Origin: Tsuneonella amylolytica
GTDB taxonomy: Bacteria; Pseudomonadota; Alphaproteobacteria; Sphingomonadales; Sphingomonadaceae
Direction: 5' to 3'
Length of the DNA stretch: 64,000 nucleotides
NCBI RefSeq assembly: GCF_003626915.1
Contig: NZ_CP032570.1
Span: forward strand, 2,665,001-2,729,000
Below the pieces are notes generated by a model. That model was not told where the DNA came from. It worked only from the letters and a program-made list of their open reading frames with translations, and made no database searches. Shown here piece by piece: positions 47,320 through 58,087 of this stretch; the stretch's first letter is position 1; every line of letters begins with the position of its first letter. Made by a program: the position numbers and the translations under genes.

Positions 47320-47344
47320 AACGGCGGGGGAAGGGTGCGGTTCC
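47320..47344 (-). promoter_or_regulatory. EcfG-type general-stress promoter of the PPOX gene
   Basis: On the minus strand GGAAC (47344-47340), a 16-bp spacer, CGTT (47323-47320), ending 24 bp before the start codon. Exact match to the EcfG consensus. Confidence 0.7.
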
Positions 47345-47368
47345 GCCATTGCGAATCGACCGGCGTGG

Positions 47369-47383
47369 GAACATAAGAAGAAC
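47369..47383 (+). promoter_or_regulatory. LexA box of imuA-imuB
   Basis: GAAC-N7-GAAC, the alphaproteobacterial LexA operator, ends two bases before the imuA ATG. A -10-like TAAGAA (47374-47379) lies inside the box, with TTGCGA (47349-47354) 19 bp further up. Confidence 0.85.
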
Positions 47384-47385
47384 AG

Positions 47386-48165
47386 ATGAGTCGTTTTCCC
47401 GCCATGACTTCCCCGAACGCGCTGCTGCAGGCCTCCGAACTCGCCCACCTGTCCTCCCGCGCTCCGCGCTGGCGACCGGGGTCGGCAGCGGCGCACCCGC
47501 ATCACAGCGAGGTGTTCGCCGGAACCCGCGAAGCGAGCGGTGCGGCCGCTGCGCTGGCCCTGGCGGCCGACGCGCTGGCCGCCGCCGATCTCGTCCCCGG
47601 TACCGAGGCCGAGGACCGTAGGTCGCTGCTGTGGGTACAGGACCGGGAGGCGTTGAGGCGGGGCGGGCGGCCCTATCGCCCAGGCCTGCCGCCCGGCTTC
47701 CGCCACCGGCTGATCCACGTCGCCTGCGACAAGCCGGAAGACGCGCTGTTCGCACTGGAGGAAGGGTTGCGATGCCGCGAAATCTGCGCGGTGATCGGCG
47801 AGATCGCGGGCAATCCGCGTGCGCTCGACTTCACCGCCTCGCGCCGGCTGACGCTGACGGCCGAAAAGCACGGGGTCCCGCTGTGGCTCGTCCGCCTCGA
47901 CGCGCGCCGCGACCTGTCCTCGGCGCGCATGCGCTGGGACGTGCGCGCCGCGCCGTCGCCGCGTCCGCGGTGGAACGCCGACGCCCCCGGCACGCCCGCC
48001 TGGCAGGCCGAACTCTTCCGCGCCCGTGCGCATCCCCCCGGTACATGGACCCTGCGCGATGACCCATCCGGTCTCGTCGCCGATCCTTTCGCCGCCGCAG
48101 ACAGGCCGCCGTATCCTCTCGGTCTGGCTTTCGCGGCTGGCGATCGATCGCTGGCGGCTGTCTGA
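47386..48165 (+). CDS. imuA: ImuA, RecA/SulA-like SOS mutagenesis protein
   Basis: A 259-residue protein of the ImuA family, which works with ImuB and DnaE2 in error-prone lesion bypass. It looks like a RecA-type ATPase remnant: SEVFAGTREASGAAAALALAADAL near the N-terminus, LLWVQDREALRRGGRPY, HRLIHVACDKPEDALFALEEGLRC, and RRLTLTAEKHGVPLWLVRLDA. No intact Walker A is visible. The ATG at 47386 follows the LexA box by two bases; ATG 47404 is the alternative if the mRNA has a leader. The end overlaps the imuB start by 107 bases. Confidence 0.88.
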   Translation: MSRFPAMTSPNALLQASELAHLSSRAPRWRPGSAAAHPHHSEVFAGTREASGAAAALALAADALAAADLVPGTEAEDRRSLLWVQDREALRRGGRPYRPGLPPGFRHRLIHVACDKPEDALFALEEGLRCREICAVIGEIAGNPRALDFTASRRLTLTAEKHGVPLWLVRLDARRDLSSARMRWDVRAAPSPRPRWNADAPGTPAWQAELFRARAHPPGTWTLRDDPSGLVADPFAAADRPPYPLGLAFAAGDRSLAAV

Positions 48166-51771: not shown

Positions 51772-51800
51772 TTGGCGAATCCGGTATAAGAACATATAAG
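51772..51800 (+). promoter_or_regulatory. SOS promoter of the radical-SAM / UdgX / dnaE2 operon
   Basis: TTGGCG (51772-51777), 17-bp spacer, TATAAG (51795-51800). A start seven bases after the -10 falls on 51807, the A of the ATG, so the mRNA would be leaderless. Confidence 0.6.
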
Positions 51801-51804
51801 GAAC
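51790..51804 (+). promoter_or_regulatory. LexA box of the radical-SAM / UdgX / dnaE2 operon
   Basis: GAAC-N7-GAAC overlapping the -10 and ending two bases before the start codon, the same geometry as at imuA. LexA would block polymerase directly. Confidence 0.88.
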
Positions 51805-51806
51805 GA

Positions 51807-53051
51807 ATGGGCGCGCAGACCACCATCGAGAAGCTGGAGATTCTCGCCGACGCGGCAAAGTACGATGCCTCGTGCGCGTCGTCCGGTACGGCCAAGCGCA
51901 ACAGCGCCGGTGGCAAGGGGATCGGTTCGACCGAGGGCATGGGCATCTGCCATGCCTACGCGCCCGATGGCCGGTGCATCAGCCTGCTCAAGATCCTGCT
52001 GACCAATCATTGTGTGTTCGACTGCCACTATTGCGTGAACCGCAAGAGTTCGAACGTGCGCCGCGCACGGTTCACGCCGCAGGAGGTCGTAGACCTGACG
52101 CTGAGCTTCTACCGGCGCAATTATATCGAGGGGCTGTTTCTTTCGTCGGGCATCGTCAAGAGCTCGAACCATACGATGGAGCAGCTGGTCGAGGTCGCGC
52201 GCATCCTGCGTGAGGAGCACGATTTTCGCGGCTATATCCACCTCAAGACCATTCCGGAAGCCGACCCCGAGCTCGTGCATCAGGCCGGGCTCTATGCCGA
52301 CCGCGTCTCAATCAACGTCGAACTGCCGACCGATGCCGGCCTGACGCGTCTGGCGCCGGACAAAAGCGCGCGCCAGATCGAAGGGGCGATGGCCGGGGTG
52401 AAGGCCGACATCGTCGAGGCGAAGGACAACCGGAAGCGGTTCAAGCACGCGCCGCGGTTCGCCCCCGCCGGCCAGTCGACGCAGATGATCGTCGGGGCCG
52501 ATGCGGCGACCGATGCCGACATCGTGGGCAAGGCCAGCCGCCTCTACGACAACTTCCGCCTGCGCCGCGTCTATTACAGCGCGTTCAGCCCCATCCCCGA
52601 TGCGAGCGCGGTGCTGCCGCTGAAGCGCCCGCCGCTGATCCGCGAGCATCGGCTGTACCAGTCCGACTGGCTGATGCGGTTCTACGGCTACCAGCCGGGC
52701 GAGGTGATGCAGGCGACCGAGGCCGACGGCAACCTGCCGCTCGACATCGACCCCAAGCTCGCCTGGGCGCTGAAGTTTCGCGAGCGGTTTCCGGTCGACA
52801 TCAATCGGGCGAGCAAGGAAGAACTGCTCCGCGTGCCCGGGCTCGGCGTACGGGCGGTGGGGCGTATTCTCGCCAGCCGCCGGCACCGGACGATGCGGCT
52901 GGAGGATGTCGCCAAGCTCACCGTCTCGATCGCCAAGGTCCGCCCGTTCATCGTGACCGCCGACTGGCGCCCGGTATTGCTCACCGACCGCGCGGATCTG
53001 CGCGCACTGCTCGCGCCCAAGCAGGAGCAGCTCGAGCTGTTCGCGGCGTGA
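51807..53051 (+). CDS. Putative DNA modification/repair radical-SAM protein (UDG-linked)
   Basis: A 414-residue radical-SAM protein of the type linked to UDG-family proteins (TIGR03916-like). The cluster motif CVFDCHYC gives Cys69, Cys73 and Cys76 (CX3CX2C). The barrel follows with FLSSGIVKSS, GYIHLKTIP and VSINVELPT. A helix-hairpin-helix lies at about 330-358 (DINRASKEELLRVPGLGVRAVGRIL), pointing to DNA binding. A chemical reaction on DNA is inferred; the substrate is unknown. The ATG at 51807 is set by the LexA box and promoter. The UdgX fusion gene starts ten bases after its stop. Confidence 0.92.
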   Translation: MGAQTTIEKLEILADAAKYDASCASSGTAKRNSAGGKGIGSTEGMGICHAYAPDGRCISLLKILLTNHCVFDCHYCVNRKSSNVRRARFTPQEVVDLTLSFYRRNYIEGLFLSSGIVKSSNHTMEQLVEVARILREEHDFRGYIHLKTIPEADPELVHQAGLYADRVSINVELPTDAGLTRLAPDKSARQIEGAMAGVKADIVEAKDNRKRFKHAPRFAPAGQSTQMIVGADAATDADIVGKASRLYDNFRLRRVYYSAFSPIPDASAVLPLKRPPLIREHRLYQSDWLMRFYGYQPGEVMQATEADGNLPLDIDPKLAWALKFRERFPVDINRASKEELLRVPGLGVRAVGRILASRRHRTMRLEDVAKLTVSIAKVRPFIVTADWRPVLLTDRADLRALLAPKQEQLELFAA

Positions 53052-53061
53052 GGGGGCGGGC

Positions 53062-54513
53062 GTGACTTCCCTCCAGCACGTCAAGCTCGGTACGTACTAC
53101 GTCGTTGCCTTGCCCGAAGCGGACGATTTCGACTTCTGGCGCGAACGGGCACGCGGGCTGGTGCAGTGCGACGTGCCGCCCGACCGGGTGGCGTGGGTCG
53201 AACCGGGCGGATCGGGTAGCCTGTTCAGCCACGGCGACCGGCGCATTCCCGTGCCCGCCGCCGATGCCCCGCCGGTCCGTGCGAGCAAGGCGTTCGTGAA
53301 TCTCGCCAAGAGCGCGATCTGCCATTCCGATCCCGAACGCTTCGCGCTGCTCTACCGCCTGCTGTGGCGGTTGCAGGCCAATCCGCGGCTGTTGGAAGAC
53401 GGCGCCGATCCCGAGGTTCGCAAGCTCGACGAACTGGCGCGCACCGTGCGGCGCGACATCCACAAGATGCGCGCCTTCGTCCGCTTCCGCCTCGTCGAAG
53501 GGGAAGCGGACGGGGAAGAGCATTACGTCGCCTGGTTCGAGCCCGAGCACCACATCCTGCGCACGAACGCCGGGTTTTTCGTGCGCCGGTTCGCCAACAT
53601 GAAGTGGTCGATCCTGACGCCCAGCGGATCGCTCCACTGGGACGGGCGGGTGCTGGAAGAGGGCCCGCCCGCGCAGCGCAGCGACGCGCCTCAGGGCGAC
53701 GCGACCGAGGATTTGTGGCGCAAGTATTATGCATCGATCTTCAATCCCGCGCGTTTGAAGATCGGGGCCATGCTCAAGGAGATGCCTCGCAAATATTGGA
53801 AGAACATGCCCGAGGCGGCGCTCATTCCCGAGCTGGTCGCCGGGGCGCAATCGCGGGAGTCGCAGATGGTCGCCGCCGGTACGCTGGAGTTCGAGGAACG
53901 GCCCGACACGCTCGAGGCGATCGACAAGGCGATCCATGCCTGTCGCAAGTGTCCGATCGGCCAGCTCGACAACCATGCGATGATGGGCGAGGGGCCGCAG
54001 GATTACGCCAAGGGTTTTTCGGGTCTGATGATCGTGGGCGAACAGCCGGGCGACCAGGAGGACCTGGCGGGCCGCCCCTTCGTGGGACCCGCCGGGCAAT
54101 TGCTCGACCGGCATCTGGAACGCGCCGGGATCGACCGTCGCAGTGCCTACATCACCAACGCGGTCAAGCACTTCAAGTTCGTCAACCGGGGCAAGCGGCG
54201 GCTGCACCAGTCGCCGACCGCCAAGGAGATCGACACCTGCCGCTGGTGGGTGGAGGGGGAGCGGGCGATCGTGCAGCCTAGACTGATCCTCGCGATGGGC
54301 GCGAGCGCGGCGCGCGGGATGCTCGGCAAGACGGTGAGCATCACCAAGGCGCGGGGTGCCCCGATCGCGCTGGAGGACGGCAGCGAACTGTGGGTGACCG
54401 CGCATCCCAGCTACCTGCTGCGCCTCGACGGTGCGGCGCAGGAAGAACAGTCGCGCCTGTTCGATGCCGATCTCGCCGCGGTGAAGGAGCGGCTGGCGGA
54501 ACTCGCCGGATGA
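53062..54513 (+). CDS. DUF4130-UdgX fusion (uracil-DNA cross-linking protein)
   Basis: A 483-residue fusion. Residues 1-240 form the radical-SAM-linked domain (DUF4130/TIGR03915-like). Residues about 285-480 are a UdgX-type uracil-DNA glycosylase domain: GEQPGDQEDLAGRPFVGPAG at 326-345, the R-loop KRRLHQSP with His382 (the residue that bonds covalently to the abasic sugar in mycobacterial UdgX), and HPSYLLR at 448-454. Cys294, Cys297 and Cys393 are likely iron-sulfur ligands; a fourth is not evident. GTG start with GAGGGG upstream. dnaE2 follows one base later. Confidence 0.92.
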   Translation: MTSLQHVKLGTYYVVALPEADDFDFWRERARGLVQCDVPPDRVAWVEPGGSGSLFSHGDRRIPVPAADAPPVRASKAFVNLAKSAICHSDPERFALLYRLLWRLQANPRLLEDGADPEVRKLDELARTVRRDIHKMRAFVRFRLVEGEADGEEHYVAWFEPEHHILRTNAGFFVRRFANMKWSILTPSGSLHWDGRVLEEGPPAQRSDAPQGDATEDLWRKYYASIFNPARLKIGAMLKEMPRKYWKNMPEAALIPELVAGAQSRESQMVAAGTLEFEERPDTLEAIDKAIHACRKCPIGQLDNHAMMGEGPQDYAKGFSGLMIVGEQPGDQEDLAGRPFVGPAGQLLDRHLERAGIDRRSAYITNAVKHFKFVNRGKRRLHQSPTAKEIDTCRWWVEGERAIVQPRLILAMGASAARGMLGKTVSITKARGAPIALEDGSELWVTAHPSYLLRLDGAAQEEQSRLFDADLAAVKERLAELAG

Positions 54514-54514
54514 C

Positions 54515-58087
<3,573 letters not shown>

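Follow-up and report, generated by a model that had tools for sequence, protein, structure and literature searches.

A LexA operator, a −10 element and a start codon appear to be fused at a radical-SAM DNA repair operon of Sphingomonadales

The radical-SAM operon of Tsuneonella amylolytica very probably starts from a composite promoter, which merges LexA operator, −10 hexamer and start codon into one element of the form GAACATATANNGAAC-NN-ATG. The mRNA of its first gene is best read as having a leader of 0–2 nt, with transcription predicted to start at or within 2 nt of position 51807. We assign this reading a probability of roughly 80% from the comparison of sequences. Positions refer to the window, i.e., the whole stretch of 64,000 nucleotides that was analyzed, which comes from a genome consisting of a single contig of 2.79 Mb. 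All features mapped in the window are on the forward strand.

The putative −35 element TTGGCG (51772–51777), read from the sequence and matched at a 17-bp spacer in orthologs, is followed by a spacer of 17 nt (51778–51794) and the −10 element TATAAG (51795–51800). This hexamer lies wholly within the LexA-type operator GAAC-N7-GAAC (GAACATATAAGGAAC; 51790–51804), which was identified by pattern match and ortholog conservation. On the opposite strand, GAAC-N7-GAAC reads GTTC-N7-GTTC, given in a passage of PMC8565304 as the alphaproteobacterial LexA motif. The promoter of the radical-SAM operon is thus overlaid by an operator of the alphaproteobacterial LexA/SOS type. The ATG of the radical-SAM gene (51807–51809) follows 6 nt past TATAAG, and the seventh base 3′ of the hexamer, 51807, is both the A of this ATG and the predicted transcription start. 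The first-pass annotation had described TTGGCG-N17-TATAAG, the LexA box over the −10 element and the ATG at 51807, and all these coordinates were correct to the base. It had also placed the transcript start on the ATG itself; the comparative evidence described below (spacing, −35 element and pattern of Shine-Dalgarno (SD) words) supports a predicted 5′ end on this base or within 2 nt of it. According to a section of PMC3160421, leaderless bacterial genes are marked by a TA-like signal located ~12 bp 5′ of the start. TATAAG begins 12 nt before the ATG and no SD word is conserved, so the gene carries a signal of this type.

LexA bound at 51790–51804 would cover the −10 element and abut the ATG, and would thus repress by occluding RNA polymerase. 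Upon DNA damage and the resulting cleavage of LexA, transcription would begin at 51807 or no more than 2 nt from it. The first gene would then be translated from a leaderless mRNA, and the second gene would be read from its own SD-like site.

The first gene (51807–53051) encodes a radical-SAM putative DNA modification/repair protein of 414 aa, which matched TIGR03916 with 580.6 bits (cut-off 343.5). We take TIGR03916 to be equivalent to COG4277. The second gene (53062–54513) encodes a 483-aa fusion protein with a TIGR03915 domain (220.6 bits) and a UdgX-family domain (TIGR03914, 306.2 bits), each scoring above its cut-off. The radical-SAM gene, over its curated cut-off and with a TIGR03914/TIGR03915 neighbor, thus belongs to the rSAM_link_UDG type. 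The SD-like word GAGGGGG (53050–53056) precedes the second gene's GTG by 5 nt, so that this gene looks SD-led. The third gene (54515–58087) encodes an error-prone DNA polymerase, DnaE2-like, of 1190 aa (NF004225, 1377 bits, cut-off 939). Its ATG adjoins the UdgX stop codon, 1 nt after it, which suggests coupling of the two genes. UdgX is next to the radical-SAM gene in the window and was found in 77 of 80 loci of relatives, the other three being on incomplete contigs. Among the 63 loci of relatives with at least 5 kb on either side, 30 carried imuB-like, UdgX and dnaE2 genes close to the radical-SAM gene and in its orientation, one had UdgX and dnaE2, and 32 had UdgX alone.

The bare operator pattern proves little. 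GAAC-N7-GAAC occurred in the window about as often as chance would give (two sites for 1.88 expected), and although the whole genome contained 80 such sites (39 + 41) compared to 36 for the reversed control pattern, most of them were away from gene starts. Palindromic GAAC-N-GTTC boxes (11 in the window, 7.28 expected) were set aside. Because the pattern itself is not significant, the case for a real layout comes from ortholog conservation. For this purpose, 110 orthologous loci were collected, 30 from the 156 matching genomes in a 296-genome sample of Sphingomonadales and 80 as the best of 589 relatives. Three duplicates were dropped, leaving 107 distinct loci in a set that leans to near relatives. 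The nearest named relatives at the radical-SAM gene were Tsuneonella troitsensis and T. litorea, each with 95% identity.

The box was found in all 110 loci (108 exact, two with one mismatch), each with an in-frame start downstream. With a start caller that takes the first in-frame start 3′ of the box and is therefore biased toward short gaps, the distance from the end of the box to the start was exactly 2 nt in 86 of the 107 distinct loci, 3 nt in four and 4 nt in one, i.e., at most 4 nt in 91; it was 7–27 nt in the remaining 16. The loci with a 2-nt gap started with ATG (83) or GTG (3), and two of their 86 boxes had a one-mismatch GAAC half. Among the 90 loci in which the gap was no longer than 3 nt, 32 had an in-frame stop in the 60 nt preceding the start, which makes a start further upstream impossible at those 32. 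In the window itself the reading frame is open upstream, and the start at 51807 thus rests on homology.

The promoter elements were conserved at fixed distances. In the 91 short-gap loci, the columns from −45 to −20 before the box held at most 0.30 bits each, and CTTGGC at −19 to −14 stood out, with 1.65 bits at −18 (T in 85/91) and 1.37 bits at −16 (G in 82/91). Sixty of the 91 loci had a hexamer agreeing with TTGACA at 4/6 or more positions and separated from the in-box TATA by exactly 17 bp, compared to 2, 0, 6, 2, 0, 0 and 1 loci for spacers of 14, 15, 16, 18, 19, 20 and 21 bp; a weaker second TTGACA-like peak appeared at −24 in 13 loci. Within the box, positions 6–9 were TATA in the 86 loci with a 2-nt gap (T 85, A 86, T 69, A 75), while in the whole short-gap class T at position 6 was found in 90/91 and A at position 7 in 91/91. 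Positions 10–11 were free, and the sixth base of the −10 element had no bias to T (18/86). The spacing of the −35 element, the −10 element and the ATG was therefore held across Sphingomonadales while the flanking sequence diverged. Judged from these orthologs, the arrangement of box, promoter and ATG at the radical-SAM operon is not a chance one.

The exact base of the start is less certain than the short leader. A purine directly followed the box in 81 of the 86 loci with a 2-nt gap, and a start site can usually shift by 1–2 nt. Both points speak for transcription beginning at 51805 or 51806 (G or A), i.e., for a near-leaderless mRNA with 1–2 nt before the ATG, which forms a possible, smaller share within the 0–2 nt reading. 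However, a purine also followed the first half-site (box position 5) in 86/86 loci, and it is better explained as part of a LexA half-site GAACR. Since the purine is common to both half-sites, the operator is better written GAACR-N6-GAACR, which leaves just one free base between operator and ATG.

A longer leader is unlikely. It would require another −10 element, e.g., the second TATAAG of the window at 51785–51790, with a start ~10 nt upstream, so that the box would lie in a short leader and AAGGA (51798–51802), an SD-like word within the LexA box that is usable only with transcription from upstream, would serve as the SD. Both words exist, and since AAGGA is 4 nt before the ATG of the window, a leader from upstream could be SD-led in this species. 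However, the columns −5 to −2 before the box were near background, the second TATAAG was not conserved, and the hexamer 17 bp upstream of it (GAGTTA) is not −35-like. The in-box AAGGA was present in just 16 of the 91 short-gap orthologs, where the free box positions permit it, and we rejected the idea of a designed dual-use site since the word is not conserved. The short-gap class as a whole had an SD tetramer, mostly AAGGA, in the last 20 nt in 22 of 91 loci; the background was 17 of 107 in the 20-mers taken 41–60 nt upstream. The start of the gene was also weakly folded, its first 50 nt being less stable than internal windows in 73/91 loci (mean −10.0 vs −12.4 kcal/mol). Weak folding is general at gene starts and not specific to leaderless genes, so this result fits an open start but would be expected at most genes.

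The 16 long-gap loci kept the promoter and the box, and 11 of them had a hexamer matching TTGACA at the 17-bp spacing. An SD tetramer was present between the box and the called start in 13 of the 16. In two of the three without it (L084 and L091), the called GTG is within AAAGGTG and an in-frame ATG follows 15 nt later; these two are therefore probably SD-bearing as well. In a phylogeny of the 107 proteins, at least five changes were needed to explain the long-gap state, four of them forced by well-supported branches, which indicates repeated gain or loss of the leader. The fixed spacing is very unlikely to be a mere by-product of relatedness without selection on the distance. Many of the loci were indeed drawn from one family, yet the −35 element, the box and the distance were kept where upstream columns were near background, and insertions between box and ATG did happen (16/107), accompanied by SD words. 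Outside the order, 289 alphaproteobacterial genomes were searched, of which 18, including the source genome, had TIGR03916 over the cut-off. The gap was at most 4 nt in seven of the other 17 loci and longer in nine, and one locus had no box. Owing to this mixture beyond Sphingomonadales, the layout either predates the order or arose repeatedly.

The first-pass annotation had also suggested that a leaderless mRNA would be useful when translation is under stress, but selection for such translation, via specialized ribosomes or MazF-type processing, is highly improbable: nothing beyond that suggestion speaks for it, whereas PF02452 (MazF/PemK) matched E. coli in a control search but nothing in the genome, the second gene is preceded by an SD-like word, the operon is kept in lineages having a leader, and the 375 leaderless mRNAs of Caulobacter are described in the relevant passage of PMC4117421 as translated with about the same efficiency as leadered mRNAs during normal growth. 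More simply, packing the operator over the −10 element may have left no room for an SD, with a lower translation of the first gene being tolerable or useful. For the acuR operon, part of PMC3017554 describes weaker translation of the leaderless first gene than of those downstream.

This acuR-acuI-dddL operon of Rhodobacter sphaeroides resembles the radical-SAM operon in several respects, as far as the excerpt of PMC3017554 goes. It is an alphaproteobacterial leaderless operon with the operator of a repressor at its promoter, and its first gene has no SD while the downstream genes are better translated. It differs in that it responds to the TetR-family AcuR and acrylate rather than to LexA and DNA damage, and in that its start was mapped by 5′ RACE, whereas that of the radical-SAM operon is predicted. 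In Mycobacterium tuberculosis lexA, an SOS gene, the transcription and translation starts coincide (a passage of PMC2897130); however, this gene belongs to another phylum, has another operator and encodes the regulator itself, not a repair operon. Caulobacter CCNA_01391 is leaderless at its primary transcription start site (from part of PMC4287350) and is an early SOS gene with the LexA box GTTCttgttatGTTC (from part of PMC12700426); the two properties come from these two papers and are linked in neither of the passages. Leaderless SOS transcripts thus have precedents in M. tuberculosis lexA and, by combining the two papers, in CCNA_01391.

The genes have a precedent as well. The passage of PMC8565304 on the COG1573-COG4277 UDG operon describes the same radical-SAM/HhH and UDG pair under LexA in Bacteroidetes, and mentions earlier reports of the pair in Verrucomicrobia and Alphaproteobacteria. 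SOS control of the UDG/COG4277 operon is therefore already known; the operon studied here differs from that described in the passage, which takes up neither leader length nor an overlap with the start codon, in that dnaE2 follows in the same gene run. The order-wide fusion of operator, −10 element and start codon at the radical-SAM operon seems to be new, as no report of such a conserved fusion at this operon was found in the open-licence literature. With over 100 related loci, the set offers a natural comparison of leadered and leaderless versions of one SOS operon under the same promoter-operator. This allows the cost and benefit of a leader to be asked where repressor site, promoter and start codon share 20 bases. 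Start-codon callers that rely on SD words may misplace genes of this type.

The window contains a second LexA-type box (47369–47383), upstream of an imuA-like gene with an ATG at 47386 and an alternative in-frame ATG at 47404, i.e., 2 and 20 nt after the box. An ImuB-like gene follows. The imuA label is weak (NF033429, 26.7 bits, cut-off 150), and the name rests on context. The ImuB-like protein matched only Y-polymerase models, below the NCBIfam cut-off, with IMS/DUF6504 over the Pfam cut-off. In 22 of 30 orthologs, the distance from box to first start exceeded 4 nt and was usually 13–18 nt. Since relatives favor the later ATG, the one at 47386 may be a mis-start, and we do not count imuA as another leaderless SOS gene. 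The imuA promoters had their −35-like hexamer at −20 instead of −18 (at least 4/6 matches to TTGACA in 15/30 orthologs), and box positions 8–9 were A (27/30) and T/A (24/30) in place of T and A. With CATAAN at box position 4 taken as the −10 element, the spacer was again 17 bp. The −35 element and the −10 register were therefore shifted together with the 17 bp kept, as predicted for a promoter fused to its operator. The usual imuA gap of 13–18 nt indicates that the leaderless layout is a property of the radical-SAM operon rather than a general one of LexA promoters.

Other SOS genes of the same genome, which encodes LexA (PF01726, 61 bits, over the cut-off) and RecA (PF00154, 489 bits), had longer distances, the likely starts of lexA, recA and uvrA (named by reading) being 29, ~89 and 10 nt after their boxes. 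The recA start was placed by what we take to be the usual RecA N-terminus. An ATG in the RecA frame is located 2 nt after the recA box (genome positions 273204–273218) and would add 29 residues; it is probably not used. We also searched 118 genomes for the pattern GAACRTANNNNGAAC-N0-9-ATG, which matched in 59. Among the 93 distinct sites that were inspected, 53 lacked a reading frame of 45 codons. The sites with a 2-nt gap and a frame numbered 17; seven of these were the radical-SAM gene and several others resemble imuA by context. A general rule that the SOS boxes of this order abut ATGs was therefore rejected.

A GAATC, i.e., a GANTC (CcrM methylation) site, abuts the −35 element of the radical-SAM operon (51777–51781). 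It was at the same place in 22 of the 91 short-gap orthologs and was kept in 21 of the 44 short-gap orthologs with at least 86% identity; its carriers are thus nearly all close relatives. GANTC sites are also concentrated near the imuA box, in the window (47340–47430) as in the orthologous loci. From −30 to +44 around this box, 51 GANTC sites were found in 2250 nt (22.7 per kb, in 30/30 loci), an ~18-fold enrichment compared to 1.29 per kb across whole imuA loci. Seven control words occurred at 0.9–4.0 per kb in the same box regions. The middle letter varied (GAGTC 21, GATTC 15, GAATC 9, GACTC 6), and this use of all four letters resembles a methylation site, unlike a fixed regulator word. In Caulobacteraceae and Hyphomonadaceae, imuA and ruvC are among the conserved GANTC genes, which is attributed to overlap with the LexA motif in the passage of PMC7987155. 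No GANTC overlapped the imuA LexA box in the 30 loci, so the explanation given in that passage does not fit them. A CcrM-like gene is present in the genome (NF050803, 599.5 bits, below the cut-off of 830).

Tentatively, and with considerable doubt, the SOS mutagenesis and repair promoters of Sphingomonadales may be three-way composites, in which the operator replaces the −10 region and GANTC sites flank the promoter, while the radical-SAM operon would also have its start codon joined to the operator and hence no leader on its mRNA. The GANTC sites would abut the −35 element at the radical-SAM operon and flank the box on one or both sides at imuA, and methylation after fork passage would gate LexA-free firing. 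If true, methylation state, via GcrA or directly, would tie error-prone repair to replication. GANTC was rare in the 64,000-base window, with 74 sites found and ~195 expected from base composition; such scarcity is known for other CcrM-bearing genomes. Elsewhere in the genome, a LexA-type box (genome positions 142273–142287) lies 6 nt ahead of the ATG of a gene for another radical-SAM protein (361 aa), which may likewise be an SOS repair gene.
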